NCBI GenBank assembly: GCA_947361225.1
Contig: CANAIK010000013.1
Coordinates: 1-36,044 of the forward strand
Reading direction: 5' to 3'
Length of the DNA: 36,044 bases
Source: an uncultured bacterium
GTDB taxonomy: Bacteria > Cyanobacteriota > Vampirovibrionia > Gastranaerophilales > Gastranaerophilaceae
In this document: positions 29,526 to 36,044 of the stretch, one piece after another
Position numbering within the stretch: the stretch's first letter is position 1
How the letters are laid out: every line of letters begins with the position of its first letter
The notes under the pieces: model-generated
Databases searched by the model: none
Told to the model about the DNA's origin: nothing
What the model saw: the letters and a program-made list of their open reading frames with translations, nothing else
Position numbers and translations under genes: made by a program

Positions 29526-30560
29526 ATGGAAAAAACAATTGAATGGATTAAAACCAACAACTTTGGCTACTCAAAAATGATTGACCAAACGCAATTACCC
29601 TATATTTACAAAAAAATAAGCATAAACTCATCCAAAGATATGTATAGCGCAATTAAATCAATGATTGTAAGAGGAGCTCCGGCAATTGGAATAGCAGGGG
29701 CGCACGGGGTTATTTTAGGCGCAATCGAGAGTTTAAATTGCGACAATTTTGTTGAGAATATTAAAAAAATTGCATCATTTATAAATTCTTCCCGCCCGAC
29801 AGCAGTGAATCTTGTTTGGGCAATTAAAGAACAGCTAAAGGTCTTAGAAAAAAACAAAAATGAAGATAGAAAAACAATTATTGATTTATTAATCGAGAAT
29901 GCAATAAGACTGGAAAACGACGATATTGAAATTAACAAAAAAATCGGCGAATACGGTTCAGCTATAATTCCTAAAGGAGCAACGATTCTAACCCATTGCA
30001 ACGCAGGATCTTTAGCAACAGTCGGTTGGGGAACGGCACTGGGCGTTGTTCGAAGTGCATTTGAAAAAGACAAAACAATTAAAGTTTTTGCGGATGAAAC
30101 CCGCCCAAGAGGTCAAGGCGCAAGACTAACAACCTACGAATTAACAAAAGATAACATTAATACAACCCTTATAACAGACGGAATGGGGGCGTATTTTATG
30201 AGAAAAAAAATGATTGATGTGGTTGTGGTTGGTGCGGATAGAATTTCTTTAAATGGCGATTGTGCTAATAAAATCGGCACTTATATGGTTGCAATTGCAG
30301 CTAAATACCACAATATTCCTTTCTATGTTGCCGCCCCTAAATCCACAATTGACCCTGCAATTAAATCAGGAGATGAAATTGTTATTGAATTGAGAGACGA
30401 AAAAGAAGTTACAACAATTAACGATAAACCCATTTGCGTTTCCAATGTCAACATTATAAACCCCTCATTCGACGTCACTCCGGGCGCTCTAATTACGGGA
30501 ATTATTACCGAATATGGTATAATCAAACCAAATGAAATACATAAACTTTTTACAAAATAG
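29526..30560 (+). CDS. mtnA: Methylthioribose-1-phosphate isomerase
   Basis: A 344-residue enzyme of the methionine salvage pathway that converts 5-methylthioribose-1-phosphate to methylthioribulose-1-phosphate. Family marks are IVRGAPAIGIAGAHGV (~48-62), the catalytic Cys158 in LTHCNAGSLATVGWGTA, ADETRPRGQGARLT (189-202), and the catalytic Asp238 in VVGADRISLNGDCANKIGTY. Related eIF2B-alpha-type proteins share the fold, but the Cys/Asp pair marks a true MtnA. The gene starts 5 nt after the membrane protein gene and has no strong ribosome binding site of its own. No other salvage gene (mtnB, mtnC, mtnD, mtnK) is visible nearby. Confidence 0.95.
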   Translation: MEKTIEWIKTNNFGYSKMIDQTQLPYIYKKISINSSKDMYSAIKSMIVRGAPAIGIAGAHGVILGAIESLNCDNFVENIKKIASFINSSRPTAVNLVWAIKEQLKVLEKNKNEDRKTIIDLLIENAIRLENDDIEINKKIGEYGSAIIPKGATILTHCNAGSLATVGWGTALGVVRSAFEKDKTIKVFADETRPRGQGARLTTYELTKDNINTTLITDGMGAYFMRKKMIDVVVVGADRISLNGDCANKIGTYMVAIAAKYHNIPFYVAAPKSTIDPAIKSGDEIVIELRDEKEVTTINDKPICVSNVNIINPSFDVTPGALITGIITEYGIIKPNEIHKLFTK

Positions 30561-30577
30561 CAATACTATGGTATAAA
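30549..30577 (+). promoter_or_regulatory. Promoter of infC
   Basis: TTTACA (30549-30554), 17-nt spacer, TATAAA (30572-30577). The -35 box lies in the last codons of mtnA. Transcription would begin near 30584, 23 nt before the ATT start codon. Confidence 0.65.
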
Positions 30578-30606
30578 TAAATATATAGTTAATAGGAGAT
30601 AAAAAA

Positions 30607-31140
30607 ATTAGCAGAAATGATTACAAAGCTCAAAATGAGCTATTAAACGAAAGAATCCGGGCCAAAGAAGTTAGGCTCATTGATGACGAAGGTGTTAACC
30701 ACGGAACAATTTCCACCCAAAAAGCCCTTCAAATGGCACGAGAACGAGACTTAGACTTAGTTGTGGTATCTGCTAATCAAGCTCCCCCCGTAGCAAAAAT
30801 TCTGGATTGGGGTAAATATAAATACGAAACCGAAAAAAAAGCCAAAGAGGCTAAGAAAAAACAGCACACGGTTGATATTAAAGAAGTCAAAATGCGCTAT
30901 AAAATTGACGTCCACGATTATGAGGTGAGACTCAAAGCGGCAAAAAAATTCCTTAGTGCGGGGAACAAAGTAAAAGTTGTTATTATGTTAAGAGGCAGAG
31001 AAATGCAGCATTCTCACCTTGCAATGGATTTAATCAGCAAGTTTCAGAATGAATTTGAACAAGATAATGTTATTGTTGAAAAAAAACCGCAGGTTGAAGG
31101 TCGAAATGTTGTAATGGTACTTGCTCCGGGCGCTAAATAG
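30607..31140 (+). CDS. infC: Translation initiation factor IF-3, with an ATT start codon
   Basis: A 177-residue factor that binds the 30S subunit, prevents premature subunit joining and checks the start codon. The N domain (NERIRAKEVRLIDDEGVNHG, AKILDWGKYKYE), linker helix and C domain (EVKMRYKIDVHDYEVRLKAA, GRNVVMVLAPG) are complete. The first ATG is at 30733 and would delete the conserved NERIR region. Reading back in frame gives MSRNDYKAQNELLNERI from ATT at 30607, with AGGAG at 30594-30598, eight nucleotides away. Use of a rare AUU start lets IF-3 repress its own translation in E. coli, so the same feedback is likely here. The usual partners rpmI and rplT do not follow. Confidence 0.93.
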   Translation: MSRNDYKAQNELLNERIRAKEVRLIDDEGVNHGTISTQKALQMARERDLDLVVVSANQAPPVAKILDWGKYKYETEKKAKEAKKKQHTVDIKEVKMRYKIDVHDYEVRLKAAKKFLSAGNKVKVVIMLRGREMQHSHLAMDLISKFQNEFEQDNVIVEKKPQVEGRNVVMVLAPGAK

Positions 31141-31191
31141 TGCTCTATTTTTGCCCTTGGGTAGAATATCTTACTTTCTAATAAAAATTAA

Positions 31192-31229
31192 TATAGAACT
31201 TGGATTACTTAAAAAATCCAAGTTCTATA
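31192..31229 (+). terminator. Long hairpin after infC, probable terminator or mRNA stabiliser
   Basis: Perfect 15-bp stem TATAGAACTTGGATT/AATCCAAGTTCTATA (31192-31206 and 31215-31229) with an 8-nt loop. The following bases are AGTTTAATCCTTTTTT, so the T tract is displaced; it may terminate weakly or protect the 3' end. Confidence 0.6.
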
Positions 31230-31322
31230 AGTTTAATCCTTTTTTAGAATCCTGTAATAAAATTCGTTAAAATTATTTTTTTTAAAAAATGAGCAGTTAT
31301 TTGTAAAGTTTTGTAAAAAAAT

Positions 31323-31451
31323 TTGACAACTTAGATAAAAATACGCAAAATTAAAAATTCAGCATCATTAAATAAAATGTAAACTCCTCTATAAACTCCG
31401 TAATACTAATTCTATCCATCACGGCTTAATTTTTAAAGTTAGCCGTTTTTT
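31323..31451 (+). ncRNA. Candidate small RNA with its own promoter and terminator
   Basis: TTGACA (31323-31328) lies 17 nt upstream of CAAAAT (31346-31351). A transcript starting near 31358 would run ~90 nt to the terminator at 31421-31451. It would contain ACTCCTCT, complementary to a Shine-Dalgarno, in an otherwise open region. The -10 is weak and no conservation evidence is available. Confidence 0.3.
31421..31451 (+). terminator. Intrinsic terminator, plus strand
   Basis: ACGGCT (from ~31421) pairs with AGCCGT (~31441-31446); the inner bases can extend the stem, and eight T residues follow. On the minus strand there is no T run after the stem, so it does not obviously serve the convergent RNR-like gene. 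Confidence 0.75.
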
Positions 31452-32681
31452 TTATGTCTTTTTTTCATCCTTAAACACGCTAATTCCCTTAAGACCGTAG
31501 TTTTTAGCCGTTTTAATAATCCTATCAACGTCCTTAGTTGTTGAATTATTATCCAGAATTATTGTTTTAGATATTTGTCCGTCCAAATATTTTTGAGCAG
31601 TTTTAAGAGTCAAAAGCTCCTTATCAATATCTTTTTCCCTTGGTTCAATCGAAGGAAACACCCCTAAAACCCTTGAAGTTGTGCCGTTTGGAGAAAACGC
31701 CATTTTGCAGTTTAAACTTTTTGCCACTTTTAGAATTTTATCCAGAACCCCAAGTGCGTTTTTTGATCCATATTCAAAATTAAGCTTATAAAGCAAATCT
31801 TGATACCCTAAAACCCCGATATATGCGTTTTTATCAATATTATTAAGCGCTTTTTTTAGAATTTTCAAAGTCTTTTTTAAATATTTATAATCAACACTAT
31901 TTTTTTTATAATTATAAAATTTTGCTAAATTAATCTGTGCTAAAGTCAATCCCTCGTTGGGTTTTAGTTCAGCAGCAGCACAGCAATCGCAAATATAGTT
32001 TTTATTGTTAGAAAAAATAATCCCGGGCTCCCCTTTTTTTAACATTGAATCCAAAAGACAATTATAAACTTTTTCGTTGCGGTTGTTAAAAAATTCATCG
32101 TCAATAACAACCGATAAATCAAAACACCAATCATTATAGTCGGCATTATTTTTTAATTGAATAAATTCTTCAATTTTTGGATGATTTATATTCAAAAGCG
32201 CAATCCCGGCCGGAGGGCGAATTGCGAAGGGTTCTTTTTGCTTAAAATATTTATTAATTTTAATAATTTCTTCTATAGGATTCGAAAAATTAGAAAAATT
32301 AATCCCAACCCCCTTGGCGTTATCAATAAAATCGTCAAAATAACTTAAATCAACGTTCTTAGGGTCAAGTTCGATTCCAAGGGCGGAACTTGGATTTTTT
32401 ATATCCAAATAACAAGAACTTGAAAGGGTTACAAACCCTTTTTTTAGTAAATTTGATAATTCCTCTTTTTCTTTATTGTTAGAAAAAATTTGGGATGAAA
32501 TTTTATCAAAAAAAGTGTTAATATTCTCGTTTTGAGCAATTATTTTTCTTTCAACCAAAGGTTTTTTATTAATTCTAGGGTTTTCAAAACCACAAGAATC
32601 CGATTCTAAATCCGCTCTTACAGCAGGGTAGTGATTCAAAAAATTTATCGGTTTTACTTGATTTATCGGATTTAGAATCAT
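31452..32681 (-). CDS. Shortened class II ribonucleotide reductase-like protein
   Basis: A 409-residue protein that follows the block order of class II (B12-dependent) ribonucleotide reductase large subunits, usually 700 residues or more. Recognisable pieces: LSSSCYLD (C90, like the first redox Cys), GVGINFS, RPPAGIALLNINHPKIEEFI (~155-174, like RRGANMGxLxxDHPDIxxFI), EPGIIF, then CAAAELKPNEGLTLAQINL (~234-252), LGYQDLLYKL, SPNGTTSRVLGVFPSIEP (~330-347), and KTIILDNNSTTKDV with GLKGISVFKD at the end. The radical Cys position (C234) is kept. The paired Asn and Glu appear replaced (Asp two residues before, Ala two after), and the second redox Cys is Leu. The ATP-cone and N-terminal ~100 residues are absent. 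The frame is intact. It starts 3 nt after scpB, so is likely co-transcribed with smc-scpA-scpB. It may be a non-catalytic paralogue; function unknown. Confidence 0.78.
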   Translation of the reverse strand: MILNPINQVKPINFLNHYPAVRADLESDSCGFENPRINKKPLVERKIIAQNENINTFFDKISSQIFSNNKEKEELSNLLKKGFVTLSSSCYLDIKNPSSALGIELDPKNVDLSYFDDFIDNAKGVGINFSNFSNPIEEIIKINKYFKQKEPFAIRPPAGIALLNINHPKIEEFIQLKNNADYNDWCFDLSVVIDDEFFNNRNEKVYNCLLDSMLKKGEPGIIFSNNKNYICDCCAAAELKPNEGLTLAQINLAKFYNYKKNSVDYKYLKKTLKILKKALNNIDKNAYIGVLGYQDLLYKLNFEYGSKNALGVLDKILKVAKSLNCKMAFSPNGTTSRVLGVFPSIEPREKDIDKELLTLKTAQKYLDGQISKTIILDNNSTTKDVDRIIKTAKNYGLKGISVFKDEKKT

Positions 32682-32684
32682 AAT

Positions 32685-33197
32685 TTATAAATTTTTTAAA
32701 TCCTCGGTTGCATCCAGTTTTTTAACGAGTGCTTTAATATCGCCTTTTAGTTTAAAGTATTCCTTAAATTTATTTGTAGTTCTAATATTATAACTTCTTC
32801 CGTTTTTGTCCTTGGACCGAGATATTAAACCCTGTTCCAATAATTCTTGAATGTGTTCGTAAGCTGCGGGTCTTAATTCTTTTAAATATGATTGTCGAAT
32901 CGGTTCTTTTAGCGCAATTACCGTTAAAGTTTTTAGAATTGCGGGTTTAAGTTCAACCGGGCACAATTTTTCAACAATATCCAAGTGTTCTGCTTTAACT
33001 TGAATTATATATCCGTCTTCATCGTCAAGTTCCAGGGCGCCATTTCGAGACGAATAATCAAACATTAAATCAAGCAAAGCTTGTTCTGTTTCATCCTCTG
33101 ATAAACCCAAAATTTGTGCTATTTCGATTGGCTGCATAGCCCTTGAAGTAACGAATAGAACTGCTTCAATTTTCGCTTTTAATTCTTCAGTTTCCAT
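32685..33197 (-). CDS. scpB: Segregation and condensation protein B
   Basis: A 170-residue kleisin-associated subunit of the SMC-ScpAB condensin, which compacts and separates replicated chromosomes. It is made of two winged-helix domains: residues ~1-80 (LKAKIEAVLFVTSRAMQPIEIAQILGL) and ~85-160 (LKPAILKTLTVIALKEPIRQ, SRSKDKNGRSYNIRTTNKF), typical of ScpB. The start has GAGGTAAAC upstream and overlaps scpA by 11 nt. The downstream RNR-like gene begins 3 nt after its stop. Confidence 0.94.
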   Translation of the reverse strand: METEELKAKIEAVLFVTSRAMQPIEIAQILGLSEDETEQALLDLMFDYSSRNGALELDDEDGYIIQVKAEHLDIVEKLCPVELKPAILKTLTVIALKEPIRQSYLKELRPAAYEHIQELLEQGLISRSKDKNGRSYNIRTTNKFKEYFKLKGDIKALVKKLDATEDLKNL

Positions 33198-34047
33198 TGT
33201 TTACCTCGGCTTTTTTTACAAATAACTGTCCCCAGAATTCATTCTGGAAAATTTCAAATTGGTTTTCACGTGCTAAAAATAAAAGTGCAATATAAGCGCT
33301 GCTTCTGTCAAACCCCAGAAGACAAAGCTCCCTAAGTTCGATATTATCTTCCCTTGATAGAATTTGATTTAAGTTTTGACGCATTTTTTCAACAACTTCT
33401 TCCACATATTCCTCGTGCGCCAATTCCTTAATTTGTTCGGCTTTTAAACTTGCATAATTTCGAACCCTTCTTTCTTTTCTATCAAGCGCACTTTTAATTG
33501 CGTATTTTTTTTCTAATTCTTCATAGAATTGAATGTGGCGGATTAAATCTTTAAGGGTTACGGTTCTTTTTCTGTTTAATCTTGTTGAAGTCCTTCTTTG
33601 CAACACTTCATCAAAAGAAATTATGTTATTAGAAGGGATTTGCATTTGTTCGTACGAATCATCCGAAAAATCGTCCTCAAAATAGTCCAAGGGTTCAACT
33701 TCAAAATCCTCAACAGAAATTCCTCTTAATATATCTGATTTGATTTTTAATAAAGTAGAAGAAAACAAAAGAGCTTTCCCGATAGAGCGCAAATTATCCT
33801 GTTTAAGCTCTTGGATTCTTTCTAAATATTTATCATACAAATCAACAATATCAATATTCCAAGGATCAACTTTTCCCATTTTAACAAGGTCCAGAATAAT
33901 TTCAATAGCGTCGGTTTTTACGTCTTTTTTAATTCCGTTGCTTGAAATAAATTCAGGATTCGAAAAATCAACGGTTCCGTCTAGAACTTCGATATTATCA
34001 AGAATTGTTTTATCTTCTATATAAAAATTGCTAATCGCATTGGACAT
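33187..34047 (-). CDS. scpA: Segregation and condensation protein A (kleisin)
   Basis: A 286-residue kleisin that bridges the SMC neck and cap and recruits ScpB. The N-terminal part (IEIILDLVKMGKVDPWNIDI, VDLYDKYLERI, LLFSSTLLKIKSDIL; ~45-115) is the conserved SMC-neck-binding region. A variable acidic middle (~115-145) follows, and the C-terminal part (IELRELCLLGFDRSSAYIALLFLARENQFEIFQ; ~233-268) is the winged helix that contacts the SMC head. AAAGGG lies before the start, ten nucleotides after the smc stop. It is part of a compact smc-scpA-scpB operon. Confidence 0.95.
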   Translation of the reverse strand: MSNAISNFYIEDKTILDNIEVLDGTVDFSNPEFISSNGIKKDVKTDAIEIILDLVKMGKVDPWNIDIVDLYDKYLERIQELKQDNLRSIGKALLFSSTLLKIKSDILRGISVEDFEVEPLDYFEDDFSDDSYEQMQIPSNNIISFDEVLQRRTSTRLNRKRTVTLKDLIRHIQFYEELEKKYAIKSALDRKERRVRNYASLKAEQIKELAHEEYVEEVVEKMRQNLNQILSREDNIELRELCLLGFDRSSAYIALLFLARENQFEIFQNEFWGQLFVKKAEVNNGN

Positions 34048-34057
34048 TATTTACCCT

Positions 34058-36044
34058 TTATTCATCTTTCAACTTAACACCGGAAATTTTTGTAACCCCT
34101 TTGTCTTTTTGCGTTACCCCAATCATTCTATCGGCGTTATCTAACATTGGCTTTCTTAATGATACCACAACAAACTGCGCAGTTTTTGATTGTTTTGTAA
34201 TAATCGAAGACAATCTTTCAACATTGGGTCCGTCAAGATGCATATCAACTTCATCGAACGCATAAAAAGGACTTGGAAGATACTTTTGAATTGCAAACAC
34301 AAACGCTAAAGCCGTCAAAGATTTTTCCCCACCTGACATCGCAGCCAATTTTTGATTTTTTTTGTCCCTAATATTCGCAGCGAACGTTAAACCGCCCGAA
34401 AAGGGATCTTGCTCGTTTTCCAATACAAGGGTTCCTTCACCTTCTGATAATTGCGCAAAAACTTCTTTAAAGTTAGTGTTAATCGCCCTATAAGCCTCTA
34501 AAAAAGTGTCTTTTTTTAAAGTTTGATAACCGTTCATTCTAACTTTAATTTCGTTTTTCTCATTCTCCAAGGTAAGAACTTTTTCCTTGTAGTTGTTCTG
34601 TCTTTCTAAAACCTCGTCGTATTCGGTTAAAGCCCTCATATTAACAGGTTCCAGTTCGTCCATCTTTTTTTGAAGTTTAGAAATTCTAGAATTAATTTCA
34701 TCTAAAGAAATATCAACCTTCTCAAGTTTCTCAGGATTAATCCCGATTTGTTTAAATTCCTCTAAGATTTTTTCTAAAATTGGTTCTAATTCCCTTCTTC
34801 TTGCTTTATAGCTTTCTTCCTGTTCGTTTAATCTATCTAAGTCGTCTTGAGCTTTATTTTTGCTTGTTTTTAAGTTTAAAAGCTCTTCAGATAGAACATC
34901 TCTTTTTTGCTGGAGTTCAACTAAATTTTTTCCTAATTCCTCAATTTCTTTTTCCAGTTGTTCAATTTCTTTTTTAATTTCAATTGAATCGGATTTAAAT
35001 TGCTCAATTTCTTTTTTCAAGCTTTCATTGTCATTGCTTAGTTTTTCAATATCATTCTGTCTTGTTGAAATTTGAGTTTGTTGGAATTTTATTTGATTCT
35101 CGTCTTTTTCAATCTCGTTTTCTTTAGTCATTATTGCTTTTTCAAGATTTTTAATAACAAGTTCCACCCCTTGGGTTTTTTCTTTAAGTTTTTTTAGTTC
35201 CCCTTCATCGATTAATTTTTCAACTTCTAAAAGTTCTTCTTGGGTAGAATTTATTAACTCGTTTAGCTTAATATGTTTTTCTTCAATCAAATCGAGTTCA
35301 CGATTTAACTTTTCGTTTTTATCCTTTAGGATTCTAAGCTCGTTTTCCCCTTCTTTTATAATATCCAAAGCTTTTTCATTGTTATTAATCAAATTTTTAA
35401 GTTCAATTTTAGCTGAATTTAAAGTATTTAAACTTGTGGAATATTTTTGTCTTGTATCGTTTAGTCTTCGCTCTAAATCCTTTTCCAGCTGGATTAGTTC
35501 TTTTGCTTTTGATTCGAAATCAAAAAGCGCTTTTTTATATTTTTCCAATTCTCTTTCTTGGGTTTTATCAAAAAAAGATGTATTCTTTTTCTTTGCTCCA
35601 CCTGTTATTAACCCGCTTTTTTCTGTGATATCGCCCTCTAAAGTTACAACTCTATATTTCCCTGCTAATTTTTTAGCACAATTCTCATCCTCAACCACAA
35701 CTGTTTCACCAAGGGCAAAATAAAAAGCGTCTGTGTATTTATCGTCGAAATCAATTAAATTAATAGCAAAATCAATAACCCCTTTTTCTTTAGGGAGCGC
35801 TAGTCTTGAGGGCGCTTTTTTAATTATGCTTAAAGGAATAAAAGAAGCCCTGTCTCGACCTTGAGATCGAAGAATTTGGATAGCTCGATAAGCCGTATCT
35901 TGATCATCAACAACAATTGAATAAGCTCTTGCGCCCATTGCAACATTGATTGCGTCGATATATTCGCTTTCAATATCCGCCAGCTGAGCTAAAGGCTCGT
36001 GAACTCCTTTAATGTGCGCATTCATAACAGTTTCAATACCGGAG
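34058..36044 (-). CDS. smc: Chromosome partition protein SMC, hinge to C terminus (5' end outside window)
   Basis: About 661 codons of the SMC ATPase; the frame stays open to the window edge, so the Walker A head and first coiled coil are missing. Present are the hinge (GVHEPLAQL, AINVAMGARAYSIVVDD, LEGDITEKSGLITGGAKKKN; up to ~residue 160 of the visible part), a long right-handed coiled coil (~165-500), and the C-terminal head with signature AAMSGGEKSLTALAF, Walker B FYAFDEVDMHLDG, D-loop and VVSLRKPMLDNADRMIGVTQ. In many SMCs the last segment reads ITH; VVSLR is, from memory, typical of Cyanobacteria and relatives. The head dimerises on ATP and with ScpAB forms the bacterial condensin ring. 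Confidence 0.97.
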   Translation of the reverse strand, partial: SGIETVMNAHIKGVHEPLAQLADIESEYIDAINVAMGARAYSIVVDDQDTAYRAIQILRSQGRDRASFIPLSIIKKAPSRLALPKEKGVIDFAINLIDFDDKYTDAFYFALGETVVVEDENCAKKLAGKYRVVTLEGDITEKSGLITGGAKKKNTSFFDKTQERELEKYKKALFDFESKAKELIQLEKDLERRLNDTRQKYSTSLNTLNSAKIELKNLINNNEKALDIIKEGENELRILKDKNEKLNRELDLIEEKHIKLNELINSTQEELLEVEKLIDEGELKKLKEKTQGVELVIKNLEKAIMTKENEIEKDENQIKFQQTQISTRQNDIEKLSNDNESLKKEIEQFKSDSIEIKKEIEQLEKEIEELGKNLVELQQKRDVLSEELLNLKTSKNKAQDDLDRLNEQEESYKARRRELEPILEKILEEFKQIGINPEKLEKVDISLDEINSRISKLQKKMDELEPVNMRALTEYDEVLERQNNYKEKVLTLENEKNEIKVRMNGYQTLKKDTFLEAYRAINTNFKEVFAQLSEGEGTLVLENEQDPFSGGLTFAANIRDKKNQKLAAMSGGEKSLTALAFVFAIQKYLPSPFYAFDEVDMHLDGPNVERLSSIITKQSKTAQFVVVSLRKPMLDNADRMIGVTQKDKGVTKISGVKLKDE

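Follow-up and report, generated by a model that had tools for sequence, protein, structure and literature searches.

The betaherpesvirus proteins UL45 of HCMV and M45 of MCMV are derived from class I ribonucleotide reductase (RNR). These R1 homologues are inactive, with most catalytic residues missing, and have been kept for other roles (PMC5469499). The alpha subunits of class O RNR average 412 amino acids and look catalytically complete (PMC9531940), and their finger motif, NXCXE, is common to classes O, I and II (PMC9669993). In the open-access literature that we searched, we found no inactive bacterial RNR homologue derived from class II, and nothing relevant on a link between scpB and RNR or on RNR in Gastranaerophilales or Melainabacteria. 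We analysed an RNR-like gene that follows scpB in the genome of a Gastranaerophilales bacterium, whose genus comprises gut bacteria akin to cyanobacteria. Like UL45 and M45, its product is an RNR large-subunit homologue that has lost catalytic residues and appears to be retained for another role; the viral proteins act on host signalling, whereas the protein described here is bacterial, class II-derived and shortened.

Gene and operon

The window is the whole stretch of DNA that was analysed, 36,044 nt of one contig, and its source genome is 1.91 Mb and 95% complete. The genes at the locus are as follows.

30607..31140, plus strand: infC (IF3), identified from sequence; convergent, bounding the operon
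31452..32681, minus strand: RNR-like pseudoenzyme gene (409 aa), the terminal gene of the smc-scpA-scpB operon
32685..33197, minus strand: scpB (PF04079, E 3e-31)
33187..34047, minus strand: scpA (PF02616, E 7e-16), overlapping scpB by 11 nt
34058..36043, minus strand: smc, 3' part, identified from sequence by the SMC signature LAAMSGGEKSLTALAF; truncated by the contig end

The RNR-like gene has an ATG start 3 nt past the scpB stop and an open frame of 409 codons. This agrees with a sequence-only reading of the locus, to which we add the minus strand. The distance between smc and scpA is 10 nt, and since infC converges from the far side, the RNR-like gene is the operon end. No Rfam match to an RNA element was obtained within 30300-36044. 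For infC itself, the probable start is not ATG 30733 but ATT (30607) behind AGGAGA (window 30594-31140), which gives 177 aa; infC genes typically start at ATT.

Homology to RNR and predicted fold

The RNR-like gene was found in 26 of the 28 genomes of one Gastranaerophilales genus, with all 26 frames open. The class II RNR kinship that had been read from motif order was borne out by profile searches, as the 409-aa protein matched the RNR barrel domain of Pfam (PF02867) at E 5e-17 and the NCBIfam model TIGR02504 (NrdJ_Z) at E 6e-25, the latter with 87.8 bits, below the curated cut-off of 399.95. Each of the 26 family members matched PF02867 independently, and a profile built from the 26 orthologues in turn found T. 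maritima NrdJ at E 1e-26. These sequence matches argue that the relationship to RNR is not chance.

An AlphaFold2 model computed with the 26 orthologues reached a pLDDT of 89.7 and a pTM of 0.85, and was poor only at residues 8-31. It superposed on the solved structure of T. maritima NrdJ with Z 33.8 and 2.2 A across 369 residues, and the catalytic residues were not relocated elsewhere in the protein. A class Id alpha subunit, also one of the minimal types, matched with Z 36.4. The alignment to RNR catalytic subunits spans nearly the full length of the model, in which the alpha/beta barrel and the finger loop are present. As modelled, the protein would be an entire catalytic domain stripped of insertions, not half an RNR. 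The sequence-only reading had remarked on a length little more than half the usual one; the 409 residues stand, but the length is in line with the approximately 412 aa of class O, and it is the residue losses that are odd.

Loss of catalytic residues and segments

We compared the 26 orthologues of the genus with 17 canonical NrdJ sequences from the same class. The positions discussed below are as follows.

32379..32384, minus strand: A100-L101, position of the first redox Cys (T. maritima C119); Cys in 0 of 26
32124..32126, minus strand: C186, a newly fixed Cys in place of the canonical NrdJ Asn; found in 26 of 26 orthologues and in a longer relative in genome G284
32013..32030, minus strand: EPGIIF strand motif, kept from class II RNRs
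31974..31988, minus strand: finger loop D232-C-C234-A-A236, replacing class II NPCGE (NXCXE)
31947..31949, minus strand: L245, position of the second redox Cys (T. maritima C333); Leu in 23 and Phe in 3 of 26
31674..31694, minus strand: SPNGTTS, equivalent of the class II APTGTIS loop, with P331 and S336 invariant

Only the finger-loop Cys234 survived of the five residues required for catalysis, and the four others, among them the redox Cys pair of betaA and betaF, were replaced. Cys234 occupies the thiyl position (T. maritima C322) in every one of the 26. The finger-loop Asn (T. maritima N320), present in 17 of 17 canonical NrdJ, is Asp232 in all 26 orthologues, and the Glu (T. maritima E324) is replaced at Ala236, with Ala in 23 and Thr in 3. 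The alignment with T. maritima NrdJ is gap-free from residue 318, and the by-eye assignment of Asp, Cys234, Ala and Leu held at every position (N320 to D232, C322 to C234, E324 to A236 and C333 to L245). The LSSSC motif of the window protein is not the first redox-Cys block; T. maritima C119 falls at A100/L101, an alignment that may shift by one residue with the conclusion unaffected, and the Cys of LSSSC (C90) was found in only 4 of the 26 orthologues.

Among the 121 columns invariant in canonical NrdJ, 22 are unchanged and invariant in the short family, seven carry a different residue that is again invariant (N to S87, A to S99, C to A100, R to P156, N to C186, I to L209 and N to D232) and 35 further columns are deleted in all members. 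The refixed residues speak for a new function and not for decay. Invariant in the family are E218-P219, S371, T373 and, within the PTGTIS loop, P331 and S336; D232, C186, W185 and P156 are newly fixed. A Cys metal site formed by C186, C231, C233 and C234 was considered and rejected, as C231 (22 of 26) and C233 (19 of 26) are not fixed.

The deletions concern defined segments, for which we assigned the strand names from motifs. The loop 1 region falls from 27 residues in canonical NrdJ to 13 in the genus, the betaG-betaH segment from 98 to 42, the betaH-betaI segment from 98 to 37 and the finger loop from 21 to 10, and the C-terminal Cys/zinc tail, used for re-reduction in class II RNRs, has a median of 3 residues against 78. 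Loop 1 carries the specificity effector, and the hairpin that follows betaH is presumed to bind the class II cofactor (PMC9531940); this hairpin falls within the betaH-betaI segment, which is mostly deleted in the RNR-like family. With class II NrdJ (TIGR02504; T. maritima NrdJ, PDB 1XJE and 3O0O), the protein shares the catalytic-domain fold, the block order, the finger-loop Cys, EPGIIF, a PTGTIS-like loop and the SKT strand; unlike NrdJ, it lacks the Asn, the Glu, both redox Cys, loop 1, most of betaH-betaI and the Zn/Cys tail.

We considered an ordinary minimal RNR resembling the approximately 412-aa class O enzymes. The class O alpha subunit of Synechococcus phage S-CBP4 (PDB 7URG; PMC9531940) likewise has about 410 residues and few insertions round the barrel, and the similar length (PMC9531940) and the full barrel would fit such an enzyme. 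However, class O keeps NVCLE, both redox Cys and the C-terminal Cys pair (PMC9531940, PMC9669993) and pairs with a ferritin-like subunit, whereas all 26 RNR-like proteins have lost the Asn, the Glu, both redox Cys and the tail. Neither the NVCLE finger loop nor the redox Cys nor the C-terminal CXXC/CXC that mark class O (PMC9531940, PMC9669993) was found in the family, and we regard an ordinary minimal RNR as extremely unlikely. Since the residues needed for RNR chemistry are replaced, a non-RNR use is very probable.

Another reading is a radical enzyme with altered chemistry. Cys234, invariant in 26 of 26, would form the thiyl, C186 and D232 would take over from the old redox and acid/base residues, and something other than a ribonucleotide to be reduced would be the substrate. 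C186 is newly fixed and common to the G284 relative, D232 is invariant, and RNR is related in structure to the glycyl-radical enzymes (PMC9669993). Against this, the segment with the putative class II cofactor hairpin has been cut to 37 residues, the finger loop has been shortened to 10, and no radical-generating partner gene adjoins the RNR-like gene; we consider such an enzyme distinctly unlikely.

Conservation, selection and loss within the genus

In support of the sequence-only reading, an intact frame lies behind scpB in 26 of the 28 congeners, with the catalytic residues replaced in all 26. The RNR-like gene lies directly 3' of scpB in 26 of 26, at a spacing of -4 to +6 nt that includes several stop/start overlaps, and frame decay was found in none. 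The next downstream gene belongs to one family in only 18 of the 26, so that the downstream order turns over but the scpB junction does not. In these 18 congeners, the neighbour is a convergent gene of about 380 aa, labelled ATP-grasp-like from its sequence by eye, which overlaps the end of the RNR-like gene or lies directly against it (for example, L087 from about 5284 onward). The same junction and open frames in 26 genomes led us to reject a pseudogene or an assembly artefact.

The orthologues are 45-53% identical to the window protein, and the RNR-like protein diverges much faster than ScpB, at about 50% versus 84% identity. For the three close pairs in which the method converged, dN/dS of the RNR-like gene was 0.10-0.13, as compared with about 0.003-0.025 for scpA and scpB. 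Relatives of up to 53% identity come mostly from Candidatus Gastranaerophilales, several of them from animal guts. The gene is inherited vertically in the genus and is under purifying selection. The predicted RNR fold, the catalytic residues lost in all members and the purifying selection on the frame fit an RNR-derived pseudoenzyme, which would also lack RNR activity and have another role.

Two congeners, G016 and G027, keep scpAB without the RNR-like gene, and in G016 the same ATP-grasp-like neighbour lies no more than about a dozen nt beyond scpB. In the scpAB tree, which has modest inner support, both genomes branch within the genus, and the simplest account is that the gene was present in the genus ancestor and then lost twice. 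With at least two such losses, the gene is not essential. These losses and the fast evolution relative to scpB would suit a functionless relic decaying slowly in an expressed operon, but with 0 broken frames in 26 genomes, a dN/dS of about 0.1, a confident fold and new residues fixed genus-wide, a relic is very improbable.

A half-changed relative and the other RNRs

The G284 genome, from another genus of the same family, encodes a 562-aa RNR-like relative (INTERMEDIATE; L130:2375-4063, G284:C59), which scores 160 bits with the family profile as compared with 80-95 bits for canonical NrdJ. Like the short family, it lacks loop 1, the Asn (Ser in its place) and the second redox Cys (Ala in its place), and has C186 and the N-terminal region in common with it. 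It differs in keeping the Glu, in addition to the finger Cys, and the betaG-betaH segment, and it lies close to flagellar-type genes, not to scpB. A canonical nrdJ of 661 aa is present in the G284 genome as well. A tree joins the relative with the short family at 100/100; given the great length of both branches, kinship is better argued from the shared deletion and C186 than from the tree.

Of 142 genera sampled across the phylum, 1 has the short form. The full-length nrdJ that the sequence-only reading had envisaged alongside it was absent from the window genome and from all 28 congeners; elsewhere in the order, it occurs in most genera. An origin by in-place decay of an ancestral nrdJ behind scpB was not supported, since the sampled genera have nrdJ elsewhere and other genes after scpB. 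A phage or plasmid origin was likewise set aside, as phages, plasmids and viral contigs gave only ordinary RNRs at low identity and no close relative.

The window genome carries an intact class III nrdD (L006; G000:C2:12246-14021), with a PMGCR finger loop, an RMNGY glycyl motif and zinc cysteines, and a nearby radical-SAM ORF resembles nrdG. An nrdD was found in 27 of the 28 congeners. Class III NrdD is the likely dNTP source and appears to be the sole working RNR of the window genome. The congener G013 has a second NrdD, of TIGR02827 type, and G007 (91% complete) gave neither an NRDD match nor a full-length NrdJ, which reflects either an assembly gap or a genome with no recognised RNR.

A possible link to SMC-ScpAB

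The sequence-only reading had proposed that the protein perhaps senses nucleotides, or binds DNA or SMC, and ties the dNTP state to chromosome segregation. Such a nucleotide-sensing regulator would bind ScpB or SMC according to the nucleotide held and couple dNTP supply to segregation, and the scpB junction, stable in 26 of 26 at -4 to +6 nt while the downstream order changes, speaks for it. We modelled the natural in-frame read-through of scpB and the RNR-like gene, in which TAA was read as Gln for folding only. The fusion gave a pTM of 0.65, about the value expected from the RNR domain alone, with an unstructured junction (pLDDT <50) and no confident interface, although with few paired rows this was a weak test. 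Together with the G284 relative, which is unlinked to scpB, and with G016 and G027, which lost the gene and keep scpAB, this result did not favour a specific SMC role. In addition, the family has lost effector loop 1, at which dNTPs are usually sensed. Operon position is what connects the protein to SMC, and we consider a regulator that would link dNTPs to SMC rather unlikely.

Discussion

On balance, we lean towards a class II RNR-derived pseudoenzyme that serves as a ligand-binding accessory protein made in step with ScpB. The RNR-like protein very probably has been put to another use and would not reduce ribonucleotides. Its invariant and newly fixed residues suggest that the old substrate pocket most probably still binds a nucleotide or another phosphorylated ligand, to which the protein would respond as an accessory factor co-translated with ScpB. 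Against this explanation are the at least two gene losses in the genus, the faster evolution than that of scpB, and Cys234, whose retention in 26 of 26 would be unexpected had all radical chemistry been abandoned. More tentatively, the RNR barrel could be a subunit or regulator of SMC-ScpAB that tunes chromosome loading by reading a nucleotide or, through Cys186 and Cys234, a redox state, or else a radical enzyme with a new reaction; we hold this broader proposal to be possible but doubtful.

Betaherpesviruses offer a precedent for an inactive RNR homologue, and in the literature searched we found no bacterial one derived from class II and fixed throughout a genus. The canonical NrdJ of 635-834 aa, the half-changed 562-aa relative and the end form of roughly 410 aa constitute a natural series, in which one can test the sequence of steps by which an essential radical enzyme gives up chemistry, allostery and cofactor contact while its fold persists. 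The fixed place of the gene behind scpB provides a direct hypothesis on what the RNR-like protein now serves.
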